From a virus: DNA of 30,472 nt. Position 1 is the stretch's first letter. Every line of letters starts with the position of its first letter. A program made the translations under genes and the position numbers. Positions 1,713 to 29,650 of this stretch are shown piece by piece. The stretch spans positions 1 to 30,472 of IMG/VR virus record IMGVR_UViG_3300005663_000158. One strand, given 5' to 3'. The notes under the pieces were generated by a model that was not told where the DNA came from, made no database searches, and worked only from the letters and a program-made list of their open reading frames with translations.

Positions 1713-2069
1713 TTAAGCTTCCTCTTGTTGCTCCGGTTCTATACCAATTCCCTGTACTATCGTGAATGGTTTAGGCTTTGAATCTGTTTCTTTCTCGGCA
1801 GTGGGGGGTGGCACAGGCTCCTTTTTTGCCTCTGCAGAAGCAATGCCTTTGAGGCGGGATGCTACTACGGCAGTTTGGGCAGCTTCTTTACCGCCCTCGG
1901 TATAAGCTCTGTTGATCTGGAGTTCTGTGACCAATCCTTCCATAGAGGCCGCATTTTGTGTGATTTGTCTCATTTGGGTCTTGATTATCTTGAACAAGAC
2001 AATCGTAACTGCAACAATTACTGCGACAAGTGCTAAGGTAACTATTGCCAGTAGGTTAGCCAATGACAT
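1713..2069 (-). CDS. Membrane-anchored small protein, 118 aa
   Basis: The protein opens with a hydrophobic segment (residues about 4-29, LLAIVTLALVAVIVAVTIVLF) followed by a positively charged patch (KIIKTQMR), so it is predicted to be anchored by one N-terminal helix with the rest soluble. Residues 34-80 look helical or coiled-coil, and the tail is rich in Pro, Glu and Lys. The start at 2069 overlaps the last 14 bases of the terminase gene, suggesting coupled translation. One copy of the GCCTCTGCAG motif (1828-1837) lies inside it and encodes Ser-Ala-Glu-Ala. Being between terminase and portal suggests a late gene; no function can be named. Confidence 0.75.
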   Translation of the reverse strand: MSLANLLAIVTLALVAVIVAVTIVLFKIIKTQMRQITQNAASMEGLVTELQINRAYTEGGKEAAQTAVVASRLKGIASAEAKKEPVPPPTAEKETDSKPKPFTIVQGIGIEPEQQEEA

Positions 2070-5000
2070 TCGGTCGTCTCCTTAATGCGAATTTGCTCTT
2101 ATTATTGTATGCTTTTTCGTAAGCCTTGTCAATCAAGGTTTCTATCTCTACATCAGACAACTCTCCCATATCGATTCCAGAGAGTAGGGGCAACCCGGGA
2201 ACCAGCGGTACTCCTGTTTTAAGCCTCTCAAGAAGGGTTGGGTTAGCATTCTCCGGTGGAGCATGGCCCATTCCTTTTGCATGGACTACATACTGGGCCA
2301 TTGCTACAGTATCGATAGCATCGTCGTGGCGAAGGAGTTCAAGGTCGATTGTGAAATCGTGGGTCTGAGCATACAGCATACTGAAGGGATATTTGTCTTT
2401 CAGATGGGCCGGATATTTAATACGACCGCTATAGAAACGTCGGTCCAATCCTGCGATCCGCTGACCCTTCGAGGTGTTACGGGGATATCGGATTGGATAG
2501 ACGCGGGGCTGCCAAGCACTACCCTCATTTTGCACAGATTTCTTAGCAAAGAATTCATCTACAGAGTTCGCAAAAGCTATCTGTACAGATTCAGCTTCTA
2601 TGCCTATGGCCTTGGCCTGCCATTTTTGGCTATAGCGATAGATATTCTCAATGAGGATTGCTTCCCTCGCCCGCCCCATCCACATATCAAGCACCCACAT
2701 TATATTATGCTGGTCGTAACCGAAGACACCCAAACAGGAGTAGTCATGGTACTGAGAAAGTCCAGCAGCATAATCGAAAGTGGTTATGATGAACATTTTA
2801 CTAACGAGTTCGTTGAATGGTTTTGAGTTTTTGAGCCATTGTGAAGGAGTAGCCTCTGCAGAATCACCATTTGAATTCTGTTGCTGGTTCTCAGCGGAGG
2901 TGTCTGCAGAGGCCGAACTTTTATTTTTCTCGTACCATGTTATTTTGTGTTTGTTAGTGCGGGGAGCTTCGTGGTTCCACGGAATCAGGTCGGATTCATC
3001 AAGATCGATTGTGTATTCGTTGCGTATAGGATGTACCTCGAACATACGCCCGGCTTCGGATGTTGGGGAATTCTGGTATTCTGCCGAATTATGAACTATA
3101 GCCCCCTCAACTAAGAAATTACCCTCTGTTTCGATGTCATAGACTGTTGTCTTTTCCTTCTTCCTAGTAATCTTATAAATTTTTGTGTGTTGAATACCAT
3201 CTCGAAAATAGCCAACCTTGGATGCTCTTATTCTCTTTATTTCGTCGTAGATTCGTAGGCAGTAGAGAGGACGGCACTTGTACTCTCTACCCCATATGAT
3301 TTCAGTATGCTCCGATTTTAATTTAGTTAGGCAAGAAATGATACCAAATCGTGCGAGTACCTCTTTTATATCGAAAAGTAATTGCCGACTTACGCTATTA
3401 GCAGATTTTTTACCTGCAGTTACATAACCGTCTCCAGATAGATATCCTTCTAATAAAGCCATGAAATTTTCTCTGTTAAGTTGTTTAGTTTCTGTAGTAA
3501 GATGTTTCTCCCATGACCTGCGACCGAATTCTTTAACCTTAGCTGTTAATGCTTTGCTGCCAATACATAAGTGTAATGCCCTATTACCATAACGTATCCT
3601 ACGCAGTCCTTTTAGTCCTTTCCATTTTGTAGTTTCTAGCCAGTCTCGTGTTCTCTCTAATAGATGCCTTTCGTGCGGACCGGCACAGATGTTTACCGTG
3701 TAATGGTCTTTAGGTGGCTCCCATTGACAATGCCCCTCGGCTAAATACCTACCTACAAACCACCAGTACTCTTTTTCCTTTCCTTCATCTAGTTCTGTAT
3801 AATCCACAGGGAAGAGACAAAAATCATTCGTGGTTAGGTCCTTGGCGCATACCCATTCTGGTTTTGTTAGAGTTAAGTCTACAGGATTATTACTTCCGGT
3901 AACTGCCTTGTGTTTATTAGAATGGTTATGAAATCGATTTCTATACCAAGTTTGTCTATATACTAAGAAGGGATGATCATTACTACATTTAAGTACGCAA
4001 TCATTCCCGTGTAAGCGGATATGATATATTTCCTCTACGGTGCGGTTTCCTGTTGATTTTATTTTTATGGGATTTCTATCTTTATCCAATACTATGTCCC
4101 CCCGCCGTAGATCGGATATTACGCTCCTCCCCATAGGGGTATAAACCTCTGTATCTCCCGTAAAGCAAAAAGCAGCGGGGCCTATTTCTGCACGGCGGGC
4201 TTCTAGGACTTTAACGGGCCATTTCTCTTTCCATAATACAGATACTTTGTTGGCTTGCTCTGCATTGTAGCCGATAGCGCTGTAGATTCGGCGGTTCCAG
4301 AACTCGAAACGTGAATCGTCACCCATCACTGCATTAAATAGAAAGGAACGACGGTTTATGAGAGTTCCAATCCAGAAAATTGCGGAGCCGTGCTCAAGCA
4401 TGGGGATTATCTGGCGGAACAGGATACGCTCGAATTTTTCAAGTAGGAGTTGAGAGGACTCTTGGGAATTTGATTCGGGGTCGAATTCAGGGTCATCAAG
4501 GATAAACAGGCGGGGACGCATACCACGCTTTTTGCCCATGACACTTATGCCTTGTAGGACTGCTCCATTGTTGAGGGCGAGGTGATGATGATTCCAGATC
4601 GCTTGTCCACGTTTAGGTTTCTGCTCGCCAAAGTCGTTTATGATATAGGGGTTTGCTGTCATCTGCTGAATGAAGGTATCGAAACGGTCTTCTACAAGAC
4701 TATCGGTTGCTAAACCCATCGTTATACTGTAGTACGGGCGGGTGAGAGCCAAAAATAGAGGACATTCCTTACCAATGATTGTAGACTTAGCAGATCCGCG
4801 GGGTGCAGCCTGCGAGTTACGAGCGAAGCTTCCGAGGTCATGTACCATCTGATAATGCATCTCAGGGCTATCAACGAAGCCACCGCGATAGAAGGATTCA
4901 CCAACTGGGCGCAGGTAGGTATTGCGGAAGAACTCCCATGCGATGACGAGTTTCTCGGGAGTAGATTGGTCCATCACAACTGATAGGCGGGCCTCACGCT

Positions 5001-5103
5001 GCTCCGATTCACCAAGAGAACCGTAATGCGCCGGAAGCGGCCAGAACGGATTGCTATCATCCGGAGGATGTGGAAACACAGAATTTTCAGTTTTTGTTTT
5101 CAT
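2056..5103 (-). CDS. terL: Terminase large subunit interrupted by an intein
   Basis: This 1015-residue precursor is the packaging motor ATPase/nuclease. Extein features: a Walker A-type loop PRGSAKST at residues 101-108, a Walker B ILDDPEFD with acidic residues at 203-204, and a C-terminal RNase H-like nuclease with FDYAAG (D777), GIEAES (E836) and HDDAIDTVAMAQYV (D928/D931). An intein occupies residues 313-672, leaving a 655-residue mature protein if spliced. It is inserted between AAF and SAEYQNSP; the EYQN stretch is a conserved terminase segment. A Ser/Asn/Gln-rich linker (about 728-756) lies between ATPase and nuclease domains and carries two copies of the GCCTCTGCAG motif. The start overlaps nothing upstream and lies 16 bases before the stop-end coordinate of the preceding gene. 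Confidence 0.95.
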   Translation of the reverse strand: MKTKTENSVFPHPPDDSNPFWPLPAHYGSLGESEQREARLSVVMDQSTPEKLVIAWEFFRNTYLRPVGESFYRGGFVDSPEMHYQMVHDLGSFARNSQAAPRGSAKSTIIGKECPLFLALTRPYYSITMGLATDSLVEDRFDTFIQQMTANPYIINDFGEQKPKRGQAIWNHHHLALNNGAVLQGISVMGKKRGMRPRLFILDDPEFDPESNSQESSQLLLEKFERILFRQIIPMLEHGSAIFWIGTLINRRSFLFNAVMGDDSRFEFWNRRIYSAIGYNAEQANKVSVLWKEKWPVKVLEARRAEIGPAAFCFTGDTEVYTPMGRSVISDLRRGDIVLDKDRNPIKIKSTGNRTVEEIYHIRLHGNDCVLKCSNDHPFLVYRQTWYRNRFHNHSNKHKAVTGSNNPVDLTLTKPEWVCAKDLTTNDFCLFPVDYTELDEGKEKEYWWFVGRYLAEGHCQWEPPKDHYTVNICAGPHERHLLERTRDWLETTKWKGLKGLRRIRYGNRALHLCIGSKALTAKVKEFGRRSWEKHLTTETKQLNRENFMALLEGYLSGDGYVTAGKKSANSVSRQLLFDIKEVLARFGIISCLTKLKSEHTEIIWGREYKCRPLYCLRIYDEIKRIRASKVGYFRDGIQHTKIYKITRKKEKTTVYDIETEGNFLVEGAIVHNSAEYQNSPTSEAGRMFEVHPIRNEYTIDLDESDLIPWNHEAPRTNKHKITWYEKNKSSASADTSAENQQQNSNGDSAEATPSQWLKNSKPFNELVSKMFIITTFDYAAGLSQYHDYSCLGVFGYDQHNIMWVLDMWMGRAREAILIENIYRYSQKWQAKAIGIEAESVQIAFANSVDEFFAKKSVQNEGSAWQPRVYPIRYPRNTSKGQRIAGLDRRFYSGRIKYPAHLKDKYPFSMLYAQTHDFTIDLELLRHDDAIDTVAMAQYVVHAKGMGHAPPENANPTLLERLKTGVPLVPGLPLLSGIDMGELSDVEIETLIDKAYEKAYNNKSKFALRRRPNVIG
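3088..4167 (-). other. LAGLIDADG intein within TerL
   Basis: Residues 313-672 of the terminase precursor have the blocks of a full-length intein. Block A begins with Cys1 (CFTGDTEVYTPMG). A block B-like CSNDHPFLVY has the expected His. Two LAGLIDADG endonuclease helices follow: FVGRYLAEGH around 449-458 and LLEGYLSGDGY around 550-560. Block F is TVYDIETEGNFLVEG, and block G ends in VHN with Ser as the +1 extein residue. With Cys1, the terminal His-Asn and Ser+1 present, splicing is expected. The first LAGLIDADG helix ends in Glu and the second in Asp (SGDG), so both catalytic acids appear present and the homing endonuclease may be active. Confidence 0.93.
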
Positions 5104-9548: not shown

Positions 9549-9800
9549 TTACTGCTCGGTCGCCCTTATCACCGAAACGCTCGACAACTGCGCCGCCCTA
9601 ATCAACAATATCCTATGCTGATTGAAGGCAGGCCGCATGTCATCAGGTACTTTATCAAGCACAATCGTCCCGTTATCCCAATGCGCGATTAAATGCCCAC
9701 AACTAACCAGATTGTTCCCATCAGACCGTAACCCAGTAGGCGGTTCTTTCGACTCACGGTGCAAAAAACTAATAACAATCTCCATATTCTGTGTCGCCAT
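9549..9800 (-). CDS. Small hypothetical protein coupled to E1, 83 aa
   Basis: Starts MATQNMEIVISFLHRESKEP, with the ATG overlapping the E1-like gene's stop codon (TAATG), so it is almost certainly co-translated. The middle has CGHLIAHWDNGTIVLDKVPD and the end is a beta strand/helix stretch. I do not recognise the family. Tight coupling to the E1 gene makes it a candidate accessory of the ubiquitin-like system, perhaps a regulator or substrate adaptor, though this is position-based inference only. Confidence 0.7.
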   Translation of the reverse strand: MATQNMEIVISFLHRESKEPPTGLRSDGNNLVSCGHLIAHWDNGTIVLDKVPDDMRPAFNQHRILLIRAAQLSSVSVIRATEQ

Positions 9801-10504
9801 TACTCTATACCCCCTACTGTTAACTCCATTGCTAACAAATTCAACATTAAATCCGACTCGACCTCAAATCCCCTCAGCCACTTCGTAAACTGTGCCAGCA
9901 TAAACCCTGCCGCTACGTTCGCACAATATACCGTACTCTTGGCCGTACAAGGCGCGGGATGTGCCTCTGCAGATTTGAACAGTGTACTCTCATAATCCTC
10001 GATACTGATACTGTATTCGGTTATTCCGCGCATCTCCCTGTTACACACAGTCAATACCCGCAGAGTCTCGGCAGCCATCCTACCATCCACAAAGAATATA
10101 CAATTATCCTTTACACACTTGAAGATGAACCCCCGTACCTCAATGTCATCGACACACACAAACACCACGTCAACCCCCGCTGCATCAGCCCTCGTAAATT
10201 TCTTCTTATGTGAATTCAACTCCAATTCAGAATTGATATTCAATAACTCTGGGCCTAACACAGATACCTTGTACCAGCTTAAATCAGCTTCTTTGTACCC
10301 CTGCGTAACCACGTTTGGTAAACTCACAATATCAGGGTCGATAATAACAATGTTTGTAGCCCCGATAGAGGCCAACTGTAACGCAACCTGCCGCCCTATC
10401 GCGCCTACGCCCACCACCATGCACCGCAACCCAGCGATTTTATCGGACGGAACAATCGCCGCCTGCCTCACATACCTATCACCACCATCATTTGTACCCA
10501 TCAC
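9800..10504 (-). CDS. E1-like (ThiF/MoeB) ubiquitin-activating enzyme
   Basis: A 234-residue Rossmann adenylyltransferase of the ThiF/MoeB/E1 type. E1 proteins adenylate the C terminus of a ubiquitin-like protein and carry it as a thioester. Visible features: RYVRQ near the N terminus (R10, R13); nucleotide-binding GVGAIG at 32-37; acidic DPDIV at 56-60 with the following N64; DGR at 140-142; and a Cys-containing crossover APCTAKST with candidate catalytic C186. The paired CxxC zinc ligands of many MoeB proteins are absent. Start is GTG at 10504 or ATG at 10501; AAGGGG lies upstream. It lies 15 bases after the JAMM gene in the same operon. The pattern around C186 fits E1s paired with prokaryotic ubiquitin-like and JAB proteins. 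Confidence 0.92.
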   Translation of the reverse strand: MMGTNDGGDRYVRQAAIVPSDKIAGLRCMVVGVGAIGRQVALQLASIGATNIVIIDPDIVSLPNVVTQGYKEADLSWYKVSVLGPELLNINSELELNSHKKKFTRADAAGVDVVFVCVDDIEVRGFIFKCVKDNCIFFVDGRMAAETLRVLTVCNREMRGITEYSISIEDYESTLFKSAEAHPAPCTAKSTVYCANVAAGFMLAQFTKWLRGFEVESDLMLNLLAMELTVGGIE

Positions 10505-10519
10505 ATTATCCCCTTAATC

Positions 10520-11494
10520 TTAACCACACGGGTCATCATCATCGTCAGCGAATCCAAACTTTTCATCCCACTCATCATCTATTGTCTCATCAACGCGACT
10601 ATCGGCGTAATTATACCCATCAATATGCAGATTATCCACATTCTCTGCAAGTTTCTCTAATTCCATATAATACTCTTTGTTATCCATCAGCATCAGATTT
10701 TCCCAGTCATCCTCCGTCAGCGCCAGTTTCCCTACCTCTGTCTCCCGTACAATCCGTATACTACCATCCACCGCAGATACAATATCCTTTACCTCGCCGT
10801 ATCCTGCAGAGGCAATAGGGAATCCCCAGTTAGTCATAGTCACCTTCTCATCATATTCTGCGCCCCACAGTTTCCTGTACTCATCCGGTATGTGCATCTC
10901 AGTCAATACCTTCACAGAGATAATCGTTTTGGATTTCGGTCCGATATTATACTGCAATCTGGCATATGAAGTGCCATCACCAGCAACAATACACATTACA
11001 GACCAGTGACATTTCCCGAATACACGCGCAAAAGTATCTTCATCTATACTGCTCGGAGATGGGCCAAATGTCGGGTGCGTATGGATCCATATCCGCCCAA
11101 ACTGTTCCGGCTTCAGTCCCTTATCCACACAATCATCGAAGTAATCAGCTACCCCGTTATCATCGAAGTTTGCACTGGCTTGTGATACCTCTTGCTTAAC
11201 CACAACAACATCCTTTACCAGCAGCAAATCATCCTTGTCGGTTATCCCGAAAAACCCTATCTCATTCTGGGTCTTATCCCTCAAGTGTGTTAGTTTCATC
11301 CAGCACAGCTGGGAGAACCTCAGACTCAACTTCGTCACGTCCGGAATCTTCGGCCATGTTTTCAATGGTACAGTCGCAGATGACTCCGCTGTTTTCGCTG
11401 GTAATGCGGCATTGGTTACTGCACTCTGCGCCTTCACCTGCTGGTTGTGTATCTCCGCTTGCTTGTTGTGTTTGTTCTTCTTGCTCCTACTCAT
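10520..11494 (-). CDS. JAMM/JAB metallopeptidase (deubiquitinase-like)
   Basis: The protein is 324 residues from ATG at 11494, which overlaps the E2-like stop by eight bases (ATGAGTAG); the longer frame starting at 11542 would intrude into that gene. It has the complete JAMM signature: E78 (NEIGFFG), then H138-T-H140-x7-S148-x2-D151 within IHTHPTFGPSPSSID. All metal ligands and the Ser are present, so an active zinc isopeptidase is expected. Such enzymes trim ubiquitin-like precursors to expose Gly-Gly or remove conjugated modifier. The N-terminal 45 residues are basic and probably disordered; about 170 residues beyond the JAMM core end in an Asp-rich tail. Contains a CTGCAGAGGC copy at 10804-10813. 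Confidence 0.93.
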   Translation of the reverse strand: MSRSKKNKHNKQAEIHNQQVKAQSAVTNAALPAKTAESSATVPLKTWPKIPDVTKLSLRFSQLCWMKLTHLRDKTQNEIGFFGITDKDDLLLVKDVVVVKQEVSQASANFDDNGVADYFDDCVDKGLKPEQFGRIWIHTHPTFGPSPSSIDEDTFARVFGKCHWSVMCIVAGDGTSYARLQYNIGPKSKTIISVKVLTEMHIPDEYRKLWGAEYDEKVTMTNWGFPIASAGYGEVKDIVSAVDGSIRIVRETEVGKLALTEDDWENLMLMDNKEYYMELEKLAENVDNLHIDGYNYADSRVDETIDDEWDEKFGFADDDDDPCG

Positions 11495-12755
11495 TAGTAT
11501 CATCCTCAAAATTATAGTTAACAGCATCATCATCTTCTGCAATACACGGTTTACACCATGTTACTTCACTCTCATCCTCTTTATACACACCCTCCACTAC
11601 GCAATCGTTGCATACAGTTTCACTGCAATTCTCACACTTAGCCATATTCTCATTATCACCAAAACGCCCTCCGCACACAGAACACTCGTAGAAACAATCT
11701 GGACAATATCCCTCAACAAAGTGGTCACCAACACACGTAGTACACATTTCCTCCATACAACCAACCTCAGCGCACTCTTTTATGCAGTGTTTGCATACTG
11801 TAGTGCCACACTGTTCACATATTACACCTATACCATAACAGGTCGAGTTACTACAAATCTCGCAGCAAAACGCACAATTTCCACAGTAGTTCTCACTACA
11901 ATGTTCACAATAGTAACTTTCCCCATTAGGCACCCTATCTCCGCACGCTGCACAACTACAACTCTCCCCGCCTTCGCCCCACTCATCCATCTTGATATAC
12001 GCACCAGACGGATAATAAGTCTCCATCACAACCTTGACAAGTATAGCAAGATTGAATATATCCATATTCCTAATCGCTGTTTGTATGGCCACCTTAGCAT
12101 TACCCTCACACAACTGCCCATCCGATACGTGGGGGTGGCACACACCATCATCACTATCTCCACCACTCCAATTCCCCTCACATTCCTCTATACAATAATG
12201 TAAGCCCACCACCCCGACTAAGCCAGAATGAGCAGCTATACATATATCGAAACGACCCAACTCAATTTCCTCAAATACTATATTATCCGTCCTTAGTATT
12301 ACAATAATTCCACTATGGTCTTTCCTTACCTGCATCACACCAAACTCATCTGCCAAACTCACTAAATCTTCATATATACTCCGCACAGTAACAGGAGTCG
12401 CGCAGATTATATCCTCTGAAATCTTCTCTAATTCACCTACTCCCCCCACCATCTCTGCGTATAATCTCCCGAACCTTCCTCTACTCACAACAATTATCTC
12501 TTCTATATAACTTTTAGGGTACATAATCCGCCCCGAATCCAAGCCCTTAACCAGAACATCTGCGTGGTGCTTCATACGCGGTAAGGAATTACATTCCAGT
12601 ATTTCCTCCGAAACAGCAGCCGTATTGTCCGCTATCCCCCGTATACGCTGCAGTCTCACTTTATTATAGGACTCAAAGAACGCAGTAGCGGCTCTCCATA
12701 AAGCCTTATTGTATCTCCACTTGTTCGGTGTCTTTTCTTCACCATACACAAACAT
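11487..12755 (-). CDS. E2-like protein fused to a multi-zinc (RING-like) array
   Basis: This 422-residue protein has two parts. Residues about 1-260: a helical N terminus, then a segment resembling an E2 conjugating fold, with beta strands IIVILRTDN and FDICIAAHSG, then CHPHVSDGQLCEGN at 206-219. The H-P-x-x-S-x-G-x-x-C spacing is the E2-type active-site pattern, making C216 the candidate thioester cysteine; a helix pair ending at YYPSGAYI follows. Residues 266-404 contain many Cys as C-x2-C pairs (for example CAACGD, YYCEHC, NYCGNC, VICEQC, CKHC, MCTTC, YCPDC, CSVCGG, KCENC, CNDC, CKPC), enough for four or more zinc ions, resembling stacked RING/B-box units. An E2 fused to a possible E3-like zinc module is unusual in prokaryotic systems. 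It lies between the modifier and JAMM genes. Confidence 0.8.
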   Translation of the reverse strand: MFVYGEEKTPNKWRYNKALWRAATAFFESYNKVRLQRIRGIADNTAAVSEEILECNSLPRMKHHADVLVKGLDSGRIMYPKSYIEEIIVVSRGRFGRLYAEMVGGVGELEKISEDIICATPVTVRSIYEDLVSLADEFGVMQVRKDHSGIIVILRTDNIVFEEIELGRFDICIAAHSGLVGVVGLHYCIEECEGNWSGGDSDDGVCHPHVSDGQLCEGNAKVAIQTAIRNMDIFNLAILVKVVMETYYPSGAYIKMDEWGEGGESCSCAACGDRVPNGESYYCEHCSENYCGNCAFCCEICSNSTCYGIGVICEQCGTTVCKHCIKECAEVGCMEEMCTTCVGDHFVEGYCPDCFYECSVCGGRFGDNENMAKCENCSETVCNDCVVEGVYKEDESEVTWCKPCIAEDDDAVNYNFEDDTNE

Positions 12756-12842
12756 ACTATACCCTTTCTACCTCAACAATATACACATATATAATAGCGG
12801 GGTACATCCTTGTACCCTGTTTTGGAGGAATCACTACTGGTC

Positions 12843-13076
12843 TTAGAGGATAGACCCCCCGTCTATCTTCTTCGGTGTTATTGATACTTTGTCCAAGTTC
12901 TGCAGGACATAACTTGCCGAAGCCGGTTCCCTGTTGCAACGAATCAGGTAATTCTCCGGCTTGCTGTGCTCAGGTATCTGCTGGGCGAACAGCGTACCGA
13001 GAGTGGTTCCCTCTGAGACTTCAACATCATCAGCGAAACCACCCCCATCGTTGTTAATAAATCTTACTCTAATCAT
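12843..13076 (-). CDS. Ubiquitin-like modifier precursor
   Basis: A 77-residue protein with beta-grasp character: MIRVRFINNDGGGFADDVEV (two strands), EGTTLGTLF (helix start), and a C-terminal strand DKVSITPKKI. It ends in Asp-Gly-Gly (73-74) plus Ser-Ile-Leu, so removal of three residues would expose the diglycine needed for E1 activation. Size, secondary-structure order and neighbourhood match the prokaryotic ubiquitin-like family that travels with E1, E2 and JAB genes. AGAGGTG precedes ATG 13076, and a consensus promoter lies just upstream (13100-13127). It is the first gene of the operon, typical for a modifier needed in excess. Cys47 might be a side reactive residue. Confidence 0.87.
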   Translation of the reverse strand: MIRVRFINNDGGGFADDVEVSEGTTLGTLFAQQIPEHSKPENYLIRCNREPASASYVLQNLDKVSITPKKIDGGSIL

Positions 13077-23261: not shown

Positions 23262-23804
23262 TCATTGTAGCCAATTCTCCACCAAGATTGCAAGGTCTGC
23301 AAAGTTTACGTGGCCCCTGCCATCAATATCCCCGGGTGTCCAGTTCTCGCCGGATATGAAACTTTGATCGAAGTAAAAAGTAACGTTTTCGTCCCCATTG
23401 ATTACACCAAGCCCACTAATCCTGCCATGCTGTACATTTACCACACCATCACCTGTAAATCCCAGAGTCCATGCACCTGTATTGACGAACTCTATAGACC
23501 CACCGCCAACTAAAAATACGTCCGAGTAGTACAGGTCCACATACTGCATAGTTTCTATCCGCCCCAATACCTGTAGCGAGACATCGTAACCCAACTCAAC
23601 ATATATACCTACCATCGTAGCTTCGGTAGGTACAATTAAGTCCTCACTAATCAACACCCCGAGAAATGGGTTTGTAGGCGGTCCAAGTGTCCAATTATTT
23701 GCGTCCCAATACCCATTTGGTTCTGCGCCGATGTACTCTGTTTCTATAGCACCTACCGACACCGCAACGAGCAGCATCAACACTGTAAAAATTTTAGCTA
23801 CCAT
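23262..23804 (-). CDS. Secreted protein with dockerin-like C terminus, 180 aa
   Basis: A Sec signal peptide is evident (MVAKIFTVLMLLVAVSVGA, cleavage near residue 19-20). The middle starts with YWDANNWTLGPPTNPF and contains repeated beta strands (VSLQVLGRIE, SIEFVNTGAW, VVNVQHGRIS), as in beta-helix surface proteins. The C terminus, GDIDGRGHVNFADLAILV then ENWLQ, matches the calcium-binding dockerin-type tail common in planctomycete secreted proteins. AAAGGG precedes the ATG. A phage carrying a host-like exported protein suggests acquisition from the host; it might alter the host surface or join the virion. The dockerin-like call is by eye. Confidence 0.75.
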   Translation of the reverse strand: MVAKIFTVLMLLVAVSVGAIETEYIGAEPNGYWDANNWTLGPPTNPFLGVLISEDLIVPTEATMVGIYVELGYDVSLQVLGRIETMQYVDLYYSDVFLVGGGSIEFVNTGAWTLGFTGDGVVNVQHGRISGLGVINGDENVTFYFDQSFISGENWTPGDIDGRGHVNFADLAILVENWLQ

Positions 23805-26505: not shown

Positions 26506-27072
26506 TTATACCAGAATAGGAAGTACATCCAAATTCTTATGGATAGCACAACTCAACATAATATGTAACATTACCTCTCCAAGTGTCTTGCGCCTTGCCG
26601 CGCTCCGCCCCCACGGTATCCACAATAGATGCAGTCCATACTTAGCCATAGCCACGGTCAGCTTATGAATCACCAAATCAGGTTGTCTAACATTCGCTGA
26701 AACTTTCATCAACTCTGCTGGGGATGCTTCCACCAACAAATATGGATATTCACAAGTAGATAATTTCCGGAATGATTTAGCTTGTCGGATAGAGTCCCTG
26801 TGGTCCATTACATTCTTAAAGAGTTCCAGCTGCGATGCCTTACGCTCTATGACACAACAGATAGGAAACTTCTTTAGTCTATAATCTCCGTAATCCAATT
26901 TAACTCTCTGGGTATTAACTTGCAGCACAATAAATACCCCGGCCTGCTCCGGGTGTTGTATCCTGATAGTGCTGGGGAACAGCACAGGAGTTTTCTCCCG
27001 GGTATCGACCTGTACCGTCAAGACCTCGGGAATCTCATATCGGCTGCAAATCTCTGTGTTATTATGTGGCAT
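26506..27072 (-). CDS. ERCC4-type nuclease, 188 aa
   Basis: Residues 20-80 have the ERCC4/XPF nuclease core: VQVDTREKTPVLF (D23-T-R25-E26-K27), KLDYGDYRL (D60, D63) and VIERKASQLEL (E76-R-K78). The E-R-K motif is the hallmark of this family, which cuts branched or flap DNA. The remaining half is helical with a Trp/Arg-rich segment. No helix-hairpin-helix tail is visible, so it is a stand-alone domain. The ATG overlaps the polymerase stop by 11 bases, tying it to replication or repair. Confidence 0.82.
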   Translation of the reverse strand: MPHNNTEICSRYEIPEVLTVQVDTREKTPVLFPSTIRIQHPEQAGVFIVLQVNTQRVKLDYGDYRLKKFPICCVIERKASQLELFKNVMDHRDSIRQAKSFRKLSTCEYPYLLVEASPAELMKVSANVRQPDLVIHKLTVAMAKYGLHLLWIPWGRSAARRKTLGEVMLHIMLSCAIHKNLDVLPILV

Positions 27073-29650
27073 CGCAGAGCACTTCCTTACTATATTCTAT
27101 AGGCACAGATCGTCCTACAGCTTTCTCTATTGTAGGCAAAATAGGTGGCCTCGTCAACACATAATTTAGCTCCCTGTCAACCCACTCCTCCTCCTCTATA
27201 GCTACCTCCAGATACAGAGCATCATAGGCATAGCTCACTATCTTGGTCAGCATATATCCCTCGTATAGCCTCTGCAAGAAGGCAAACTGTGCCGACTGCA
27301 TCAGCTGGGCGCTGAGGGTCTGTATAGGGAAGTTACATATCTCGTTTATGTATGCAGATACCCCCTGTTTGCCGAGACCCCATGACCTGCTCCACCCGGT
27401 AGGAAGTTCGGTATATCCCTTACGGGCAGCCTTCTCAATCTCACTCTCCTGCCACTGATAGAACACGGAATGCTTCCTGTAAAATGCACGGACTGCTTCT
27501 TTGCAGTATTCATCCGGTAAAGATAATCCCATCTCCTCTCTTGCTACCTCCTGTAATCTTCTCCACCCTCCCCGGTATAAAACTAGGAAATTCTCTTTCT
27601 TGGCAAGTTGCCTCTTATCGTTCCAGTCCTCATCTTCCTCGGAAGACCCCGGGTAGAGTATGTCTTTAGCTGTAGCGGCATGTCGGTCTCTCCCGTTCAT
27701 ATAATCATCCATCATAAACGGGTCCCCGGATAGCAGAGCAGCCATGCGGAGTTCTATCTGGCTCAGGTCCCATACTATCAACTTGTATCCATGTTTCCTA
27801 CACGCCATACATTCCTTAACAAGCGGCGGGAAAGTAGGTACTGATGGTTTCTGTGCGCTGAACCTGCCCTGTACTGTCCCCCCTCCTTTGTCTTCTTGGC
27901 TTCCTCCTCTACTGTGATAGCTAGGAATAGGATACCAAGATGGATATACAATGCCTCTACCCCTACAAGGACTCATCACAATACCCTTACGCGGTTTAGT
28001 CTGCAGAGGCTTTGCGTAACGTGATATGATGTCCCGCGTAGCCTTAAACTTAGTAATGTTTTTGAGTGTAGCAGCCAATGCTCCCTCAATTAAATATTGT
28101 TGTAGTAGTGCTATGTTGCCTTTATCGATACATATCTTTTTGTCAGATTTCGTATACCCCAGTCTCTTATCCCCCAGCAGCCCGCATTCATCTGCAGCTT
28201 TCCATACAAATTCACGCAGAGATTTTTCAGAGCCTTCGCCTGCTACTATTACCCCGGATTTCTTTAGTTCTTTCTGCAGCAAATCACAAACAGTTTGGCT
28301 GTCGTCTTTTAATTTAGAGAGTTTAGCGGTATCCAGACAACACCCGTTCTTCTCAAGCTCGACTGTATCCCATATAATTGCATTACGTAAGGCAGCACAC
28401 TCGGCATTAAGCTTTGGTGTATTTTTACCATACTTGTGTCCTATGTCTTCTCTACAATCTCTATCAAGCAGCAAAGTCATCCCGGCATCTAGACAATTAT
28501 AGTAATGTAGATCCGGATCTGTTGGCCCGCTAGCGGTTCCATGCTTGGCGGTTATTGCACAGTCTTCATATCCGCCATACCCACGCAGCACAGCTATCTC
28601 CTTCAATCCTTTCTCCGGGCTTTGATCATATAGCAGGAACCCAAGTAACAATGTATCATCTAGTTTCATGCGGTTAGGTGCAAGCCAGTATGCACACAAG
28701 GGACAGTTGTGTATAAGATATAGCACATCGAATTTTATATTTTGACCTACTATGGTTTTTCCCTGCTGCGATACTCTCTCTAACCATGCAACCAACTTGG
28801 CTCTATGGTCCCTCCTACCAAACTGGAATAGATAGGTTATCAGGGAACCATCCCCATCCCATAACCCTATTGACACGGTTTCAATCTGCTTACCGAACTC
28901 TATTCCGTCTATGTATTTGGACTTGACAGGGTTGAATACCGTTTGCTCAACTCCCTTCAGAATACCATACGTCTCTATGTCGAGTGATATCCTGTCAGGT
29001 AACTCAAGGGGAGGATACATAGGGGACAATGGCTCTACCTTTACTTTTTGTGGCACTATGTCCCCTGTGAGATACCTCCTAACGAGATTGAAGTGTGCCT
29101 CTATCGCTCCAATCAATGCGGGCTTACGGCTTGGGTGCAGTATTGCCGGATGATTGGTAAAGAAACACGGTATACCTTCATCCCCGAACAGCTTACTATC
29201 AATACCTTGATTGCGAAATGCCAGCGCGAGTGTTTTAATTTTGGAGATACTGTACGTAGCAGGCCCCCCGCAGGCGAATAGGACTACATTCTTATATTGC
29301 CTCTGCAGAATCTCGATGTCCTTCTGTAAGTAGGGTCTGCATTTATTTGTGTAGCCTTGCGTCATAGAGATAGACTGCGGCCTGTAGCACCGGCAGGCAT
29401 TGCTCAGGTATATATCACACAGGTCTCCCAGCTTAGAGGCTGCAATGAGTTTCTCTAGAAGCTGACCTGCATACCCAACCCACGACTTACCTGCTAAGTT
29501 CTCATTATAACCGAGAGACTCCCCAACGAAAACCAGTGCAGTATCTTTACCGGTTACTTGCAGGGGCCGCGTAGGCACACCACGATTCTTTGCGTTAGTG
29601 TGCAGGTTACAGTCTGCACACTCAGGATAGGTCGGAAAGGTCAGGTTCAT
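27062..29650 (-). CDS. Uracil-DNA glycosylase-3'-5' exonuclease-DNA polymerase A fusion
   Basis: The 862-residue protein has three parts. Residues 1-195: a family 4/5-like uracil-DNA glycosylase, with CADC at 11-14, GESLGYNE near 43-50, further Cys at 86, 88 and 104 for an Fe-S cluster, and NHPAILHPS at 166-174. Residues 220-400: 3'-5' exonuclease with D224-I-E226, N304-x2-F307-D308 and Y384-x3-D388. Residues 610-862: polymerase with motif A VWDLSQIELR (D628), motif B RQLAKKENFLVLYRGG (K684/K685) and motif C SYAYDALYLEV (D810). Motif C has Tyr-Asp-Ala in place of the usual His-Asp-Glu; the two key aspartates remain. AAGGAACGC precedes ATG 29650. Confidence 0.9.
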   Translation of the reverse strand: MNLTFPTYPECADCNLHTNAKNRGVPTRPLQVTGKDTALVFVGESLGYNENLAGKSWVGYAGQLLEKLIAASKLGDLCDIYLSNACRCYRPQSISMTQGYTNKCRPYLQKDIEILQRQYKNVVLFACGGPATYSISKIKTLALAFRNQGIDSKLFGDEGIPCFFTNHPAILHPSRKPALIGAIEAHFNLVRRYLTGDIVPQKVKVEPLSPMYPPLELPDRISLDIETYGILKGVEQTVFNPVKSKYIDGIEFGKQIETVSIGLWDGDGSLITYLFQFGRRDHRAKLVAWLERVSQQGKTIVGQNIKFDVLYLIHNCPLCAYWLAPNRMKLDDTLLLGFLLYDQSPEKGLKEIAVLRGYGGYEDCAITAKHGTASGPTDPDLHYYNCLDAGMTLLLDRDCREDIGHKYGKNTPKLNAECAALRNAIIWDTVELEKNGCCLDTAKLSKLKDDSQTVCDLLQKELKKSGVIVAGEGSEKSLREFVWKAADECGLLGDKRLGYTKSDKKICIDKGNIALLQQYLIEGALAATLKNITKFKATRDIISRYAKPLQTKPRKGIVMSPCRGRGIVYPSWYPIPSYHSRGGSQEDKGGGTVQGRFSAQKPSVPTFPPLVKECMACRKHGYKLIVWDLSQIELRMAALLSGDPFMMDDYMNGRDRHAATAKDILYPGSSEEDEDWNDKRQLAKKENFLVLYRGGWRRLQEVAREEMGLSLPDEYCKEAVRAFYRKHSVFYQWQESEIEKAARKGYTELPTGWSRSWGLGKQGVSAYINEICNFPIQTLSAQLMQSAQFAFLQRLYEGYMLTKIVSYAYDALYLEVAIEEEEWVDRELNYVLTRPPILPTIEKAVGRSVPIEYSKEVLCDAT

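Follow-up and report, generated by a model that had tools for sequence, protein, structure and literature searches.

Whether a virus can carry a complete ubiquitin-like modification pathway of its own, and to what end, is the question raised by four neighboring genes on IMGVR_UViG_3300005663_000158, a 30,472-base linear IMG/VR virus contig (the window, i.e., the whole stretch of DNA analyzed). The window is a tailed-phage fragment that encodes a terminase large subunit, a DNA polymerase A, an AAA ATPase, and PD-(D/E)XK and ERCC4 nucleases. Its operon (positions 9800-13076, minus strand) comprises, in order of transcription, (i) a ubiquitin-like modifier, (ii) an E2-like protein, (iii) a JAMM peptidase, and (iv) an E1-like enzyme. 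An earlier note on this DNA had proposed that the modifier/E1/E2/JAMM set is complete in a phage, a view supported by the protein folds, by the catalytic residues, and by the conservation of gene order. Beyond that proposal, the operon is widespread in phages, linked to planctomycetes, and present in cultured phages. It probably specifies a self-contained, phage-encoded ubiquitin-like modification cycle with its usual role in the infection program of the phage.

Organization of the operon

All four open reading frames (ORFs) are present on the minus strand where the earlier note had placed them. The modifier and E2-like genes are separated by 87 bases and the E2-like and JAMM genes overlap by 8 bases, both as first measured, while 15 bases rather than 25 separate JAMM from E1 (10505-10519). 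A TATAAT promoter in front of the operon, also claimed at the outset, does not hold up: 9 sigma-70-like sites occur in the operon region against 10.7 expected from chance alone, and no such site directly precedes the modifier gene.

The E1-like enzyme and the JAMM peptidase

The E1-like gene (9800-10504, minus strand, GTG start) encodes a 234-residue ThiF-fold adenylating enzyme. Judged by its sequence, the protein is certainly a ThiF/E1 enzyme, as first proposed: it has one ThiF match, spanning residues 21-213 (E = 5.5e-22), and its family profile matches ThiF (3.1e-19) and yeast Uba1 (1.2e-18). The GxGxxGRQ nucleotide loop and C186 (9947-9949) are invariant, the latter in both phage lineages described below (window-type and crAss-type). 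C186 had been singled out together with C216 of the E2-like protein as a key cysteine, and both are conserved among relatives.

The JAMM/JAB metallopeptidase (10520-11494, minus strand) has 324 residues. Taken alone, the window protein matches Prok-JAB weakly (0.0019); the profile of its family, built from 18 relatives, reaches the Rpn11-like protein of Caldiarchaeum (1.5e-8) and yeast Rpn11 (1.6e-6). The ligands E78, H138, H140, and D151 are accompanied by S148, with the HxH..S..D stretch at 11042-11083. In agreement with the claim of intact ligands, all five residues are invariant in the 18 diverse relatives, across both phage lineages. PRTRC_A is matched by just three of the 18.

The modifier

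The modifier gene (12843-13076, minus strand) encodes 77 residues that make up one beta-grasp domain. Structures were predicted for two window proteins, the modifier and the E2-like protein. The modifier model, with a predicted local distance difference test (pLDDT) score of 83, has the order beta-beta-alpha-beta-beta; its top Foldseek match is the Caldiarchaeum ubiquitin (4.6e-5), and its VIA Z is 10.3 to MoaD and 9.6 to SAMP1. The fold of this protein had been set beforehand as a point on which the proposal hung, and the model is a beta-grasp. By itself, the window modifier has no Pfam match at cut-off, and 22 of the 26 family members match ThiS (Pfam) at E values no higher than 1, the best being 2.3e-7. 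D62 and G73 are invariant in the 26 relatives, and the C-terminus reads PKKIDG-GSIL, where the conserved Gly73 is encoded at 12858-12860. The model and this conservation support a beta-grasp protein with a conserved glycine near its C-terminus. Identity is mostly 45-55% to planctomycete modifiers and 31-37% to most other phage modifiers.

Modifiers of both lineages continue past the glycine. Of the 80 window-type modifiers that have the motif P.K[IV].G, none stops at its glycine; the chain runs on for one to many residues, most often beginning with Ala. In five loci examined among crAss-like and Flavobacterium phages, the gene upstream of the E2-like gene opens with a beta-grasp-like domain whose last residues are KKIKSG or KQVKSG. 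All 59 crAss-type modifiers close the beta-grasp with an invariant-Gly motif, which is SG in every case except one, and then continue into an extension. In cr106_1, the modifier gene is interrupted two residues past the glycine by an HNH gene, leaving a free modifier ending KKIKSGKF and a separate C-terminal part. These tails and the cr106_1 split fit processing by the JAMM enzyme, and we infer that the glycine is exposed by trimming of a precursor. The sole profile match of the crAss-type modifiers, a weak one (0.019), is to the DIX domain of Dishevelled. DIX domains have a ubiquitin-like fold. Loci L007 and L008 (1372-2109) carry a modifier gene with three tandem beta-grasp domains that ends in KNVKGA.

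The E2-like protein

The putative conjugating enzyme (11487-12755, minus strand, 422 residues) consists of a helical N-terminus, a putative E2/UBC core at about residues 116-261, and a Cys-rich C-terminus. An E2 core in this protein had been predicted, and structure comparison of the low-confidence model agrees: when residues 116-261 are compared with the PDB, E2, UEV, and RWD domains occupy most of the top 50 rows, with a best Z of 7.7, a value within the range reachable by unrelated folds.

The active-site motif, H207-P-H-V-S-D-G-Q-L-C216 (12108-12137, minus strand), is well conserved. All 23 relatives compared retain H207, P208, C216, and G218 (HP..C.G), and nearly all retain H209. The His-Pro-His precedes C216, the 30 residues beyond C216 contain no histidine, and the HPH..C arrangement resembles the eukaryotic HPN..C loop. 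The 23 window-type proteins have no E2-family sequence match in Pfam, NCBIfam, PADLOC, or the PDB, and neither do 18 crAss-type proteins in the PDB. Context and motif therefore make a strong case for an E2, and the modeled fold makes a moderate one.

The C-terminal tail (11541-11954, minus strand) appears to be a RING/FYVE-like zinc-binding region. It holds 29 cysteines after residue 262, and the alignment of relatives has conserved Cys columns. Foldseek pairs it with FYVE domains at a probability of 1.0 but with E values of 0.019 or worse, and its profile matches the RING-like zinc domain of TFIIH p44 (3.1e-4). The crAss-type tail is not Cys-rich (median of three cysteines).

Distribution and gene order among phages

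A tblastn search with the window E1 yields 74 records of phages, some crAss-like (assigned to Steigviridae wherever the taxonomy was read) and others infecting Flavobacterium. Five of these loci were inspected, and every one has the same run of genes: a protein of ~430 residues, a JAMM protein, and a ThiF protein. A crAss E2 query also finds 74 records, including crAss001 and DAC15. By tblastn against named phages, the window E2, modifier, and JAMM have no match, nor does the window by megablast against phage records. Scanning IMG/VR with the individual proteins P0001 and P0003 gives no match either; relatives emerged with profile alignments, of which the E1 alignment drew 77 IMG/VR loci and a window-type E1 alignment added 36.

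With iterated profiles, all four genes are found in 97 phage loci (54 crAss-type and 37 window-type from IMG/VR, five named phages, and the window). The loci are not de-duplicated (L066, for example, is crAss001), and 97 is not a species count; many loci with incomplete gene sets are cut by contig ends. The order modifier-E2-JAMM-E1 holds in 96 of the 97, the exception being L072, where E1 lies ahead of JAMM. Joint recurrence with an unchanged order across roughly a hundred phage loci places the four-gene set far beyond chance.

The crAss-type operon sits in a replication block between primase (58 loci) and uracil-DNA glycosylase (54 loci), a position syntenic across all sampled relatives. In crAss001 (NC_049977.1), the operon corresponds to gp76-gp79, where E1 is annotated as a thiamine biosynthesis protein and JAMM as a metalloprotease; the cultured phage DAC15 bears the same two labels. 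These labels are likely a misannotation of a ubiquitin-like system. No description of gp76-gp79 or of the Flavobacterium Fipvunavirus genes as such a system, nor of the operon in phages at all, was found in the literature searched, which did not extend to bioRxiv and most subscription journals; priority is not claimed.

Large phage contigs at L075, L076, L077, and L083 have two E1-like genes with a different small gene, ending KG, between them. This arrangement is a separate system.

Group I introns at catalytic codons

Group I introns usually occupy strongly conserved functional codons. Three interrupt genes of the operon: at the H|SH codons of JAMM in L017 (4109-4321) and L044 (3489-3748), and at the YMH|SH codons of the crAss-type E2 in L041 (2177-2408). 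The interrupted codons are those of catalytic histidines, and L017 and L041 share the H|SH site type. Insertions at the JAMM intron site of L017 and L044, or close to it, also occur in L026, L027, and L030. As is typical of conserved functional sites, the introns in the H|SH codons of JAMM and E2 count in favor of a functional cycle.

Lineages, hosts, and chromosomal copies

In the E1 tree, crAss-type phages (crAss-like and Flavobacterium phages, crAss001 and DAC15 among them) form one clade with a support of 99, and the window-type sequences form another with 98. The latter contains 36 sequences from phages together with 80 from genomes, and host clades are nested among phage sequences. The genome sequences come from a scan that found 176 E1 relatives; the 80 retained are nearly all from Planctomycetota and share up to 53% identity with the window E1. 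A Heimdallarchaeota match (L152) was rejected as archaeal because it groups with phages in the tree.

The window phage likely infects a planctomycete, as indicated by the planctomycete relatives of its E1 and modifier and by a dockerin-like protein. The latter (23262-23804, minus strand) appears to be secreted and has at its end a dockerin-like GDIDGRGHVNFADLAILVENWLQ, a feature typical of planctomycetes; it has no Pfam match.

Chromosomal copies are sparse, with a full-length E2 match in just four of 199 sampled Planctomycetota genomes. On the chromosome of planctomycete PNC21 (L208, 3152-18499), the operon adjoins an apparent CRISPR-Cas I-C locus with arrays. Other planctomycete copies have conserved AAA ATPase, DUF2958, and HATPase genes upstream. 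The genome of Planctomycetes bacterium GWF2_41_51 (G003) contains five E2 copies, which suggests mobility.

Comparison with known systems

The earlier note had pointed to the Bil operons and to PRTRC plasmid genes as parallels. Both are the right neighbors; the window operon works like them but is a member of neither, since their defining E1 and E2 features are absent.

Bil systems have a two-domain modifier, a CEHH E2 (His after Cys), and an E1 that combines a Cys domain with two adenylation halves, one inactive and one active (PMC11354881). The window operon shares with them the modifier, E2, JAMM, and E1 genes, including the JAMM deubiquitinase, and a modifier precursor apparently processed by it; a frequent link to mobility or defense is also common to both. 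Unlike Bil, the window system has a modifier of one domain (three in the relative L007), an E2 that lacks CEHH, places His before Cys (HPH..C), and bears a Cys-rich tail, and a 234-residue E1 with one adenylation domain and neither the inactive half nor a separate Cys domain. It is, moreover, carried by phages.

PRTRC and the group 6d systems of Iyer 2006 likewise combine a stand-alone small modifier that has a conserved C-terminal Gly with a separate E2, JAB, and E1. Their E2s have no upstream His and a conserved downstream His (PMC1779556), whereas the upstream His-Pro is invariant in window-type E2s. The window E1 scores 32.2 bits against the PRTRC_ThiF model, far below the cut-off of 144.75.

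The operon of Caldiarchaeum subterraneum (Ub, E1, E2, an Rpn11-like protein, and a small RING) provides the closest solved structures both for the modifier (first in the Foldseek ranking) and for JAMM (first by profile) and also has a RING-type zinc domain. In the window, however, the E2 itself carries the RING-like part, the E1 is minimal (ThiF-size), and the carrier is a bacterial virus, not an archaeon. The crAss001 gp76-gp79 and Fipvunavirus operons share the gene order, homologous E1 and JAMM, and the positions and motifs of the E2-like protein and modifier, but their modifier is fused to a C-terminal extension.

CBASS type II (Cap2/Cap3) and Bub use the same E1, E2, and JAB chemistry. 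Cap2 is an E1-E2 fusion that acts on a CD-NTase with no separate modifier, whereas all four genes of the window operon are separate and no CD-NTase is among the named window proteins. In Citrobacter, BubCD is a JAB-E1 fusion; the window JAMM and E1 are encoded by separate genes.

Proposed cycle and its role

From the genes and catalytic residues above, we infer the following chemical steps. The JAMM peptidase would trim the short modifier tail after the C-terminal glycine (Gly73 or Gly74). The E1 would adenylate this glycine with ATP, probably forming a thioester on C186, and hand the modifier to C216 of the E2, where the HPH loop would position the attack that joins it to lysines of target proteins. 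The RING-like zinc tail fused to the E2 is probably a built-in E3 or target-selecting part, and the JAMM enzyme may later strip the tag. Targets would be replication and repair proteins of the phage or host proteins during takeover. A role in the infection program of the phage is suggested by the fixed place of the operon in the replication block of crAss-type relatives and is favored over defense against other phages.

Several observations weigh against this explanation. The E2 model, whose best Z is within reach of unrelated folds, is poor overall (pLDDT 50, predicted template modeling score 0.33). Window-type phage loci have no fixed neighbor gene. Homology of E1 and JAMM between the window-type and crAss-type sets is well supported, but the profile link is weak for the E2 (E = 8.8e-4) and the modifier (0.018); a second profile comparison gives 4.3e-4 for the E2 (controls at least 0.012) and 0.0049 for the modifier (controls at least 0.048), and the kinship of these two proteins rests mainly on position, motif, and E1/JAMM homology. 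Lastly, the chromosomal planctomycete copies inspected adjoin CRISPR-Cas I-C genes or an integrase and IS66/transposase (names read from the sequences), neighbors that point to defense or mobility.

These chromosomal neighbors also count in favor of a Bil-like defense against other phages or superinfection, in which the tag would be placed on structural proteins of rival phages to yield defective particles. Gene functions and order match Bil A-D (PMC11354881), the planctomycete copies are sporadic, and host clades nest among phages in the E1 tree. Exchangeable defense cargo would not be expected to remain syntenic in a replication block as the crAss-type operons do, and the E1, E2, and modifier lack the Bil-defining features; this explanation is unlikely, albeit the most serious of the rivals.

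A sulfur-carrier pathway, in which a ThiS/ThiF-like modifier-E1 pair would supply a nucleotide or tRNA with sulfur and the E2-like protein and JAMM would be accessories, would account for the ThiS/MoaD matches of the modifier family, the ThiF/MoeB matches of E1, and the "thiamine biosynthesis" label in crAss records. It leaves the JAMM and an E2-like protein with an invariant Cys in the same operon unexplained, no rhodanese, sulfurtransferase, or thiamine/molybdopterin genes are seen in the loci, and the protected precursor tails fit a modifier processed by a deubiquitinase, so that this pathway is improbable. Tail assembly akin to lambda TAPI/TAPK, in which a ubiquitin-like protein and a JAB domain would serve the virion free of conjugation, draws on the phage context and weak PHROG tail matches (JAMM 0.028, modifier 0.034) but is very improbable given the E1 and E2, the location among replication rather than tail genes, and the crAss001 virion-cargo text available, which names gp45, 46, 47, 49, and 50 and not gp76-79 (PMC10172136).

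The infection-program role can be extended, tentatively and at less than even odds, to an ancient phage-borne system (minimal E1, HPN-like E2 with a fused RING-like domain, and dedicated JAMM) that would form a core set of crAss-like/Flavobacterium and planctomycete phages, modify replication-stage proteins, and have been captured by planctomycete chromosomes, not the reverse.

Complete bacterial ubiquitin-like systems have so far been known mainly as phage defenses or from plasmids, whereas this one is owned by phages. Relatives keep the operon in phages that rank among the most abundant of the human gut, under "thiamine biosynthesis" labels, and the cultured carriers crAss001 (Bacteroides intestinalis) and DAC15 (B. 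thetaiotaomicron) offer direct genetic access to viral protein tagging. The pairing of a minimal E1 with an HPN-like E2 joined to a RING-like domain bears on how the eukaryotic cascade was assembled.

Other features of the window

An 83-residue ORF (9549-9800, minus strand), which begins on the last base of the E1 stop codon (TAATG), is a candidate fifth gene. It has no family match in library scans, and its position makes it possible that it belongs to the operon. The terminase large subunit gene (2056-5103, minus strand) is split by an intein with a LAGLIDADG domain. The DNA polymerase A (27062-29650, minus strand) has an N-terminal fusion to a uracil-DNA glycosylase domain, and a uracil-DNA glycosylase gene also adjoins the crAss-type operons.

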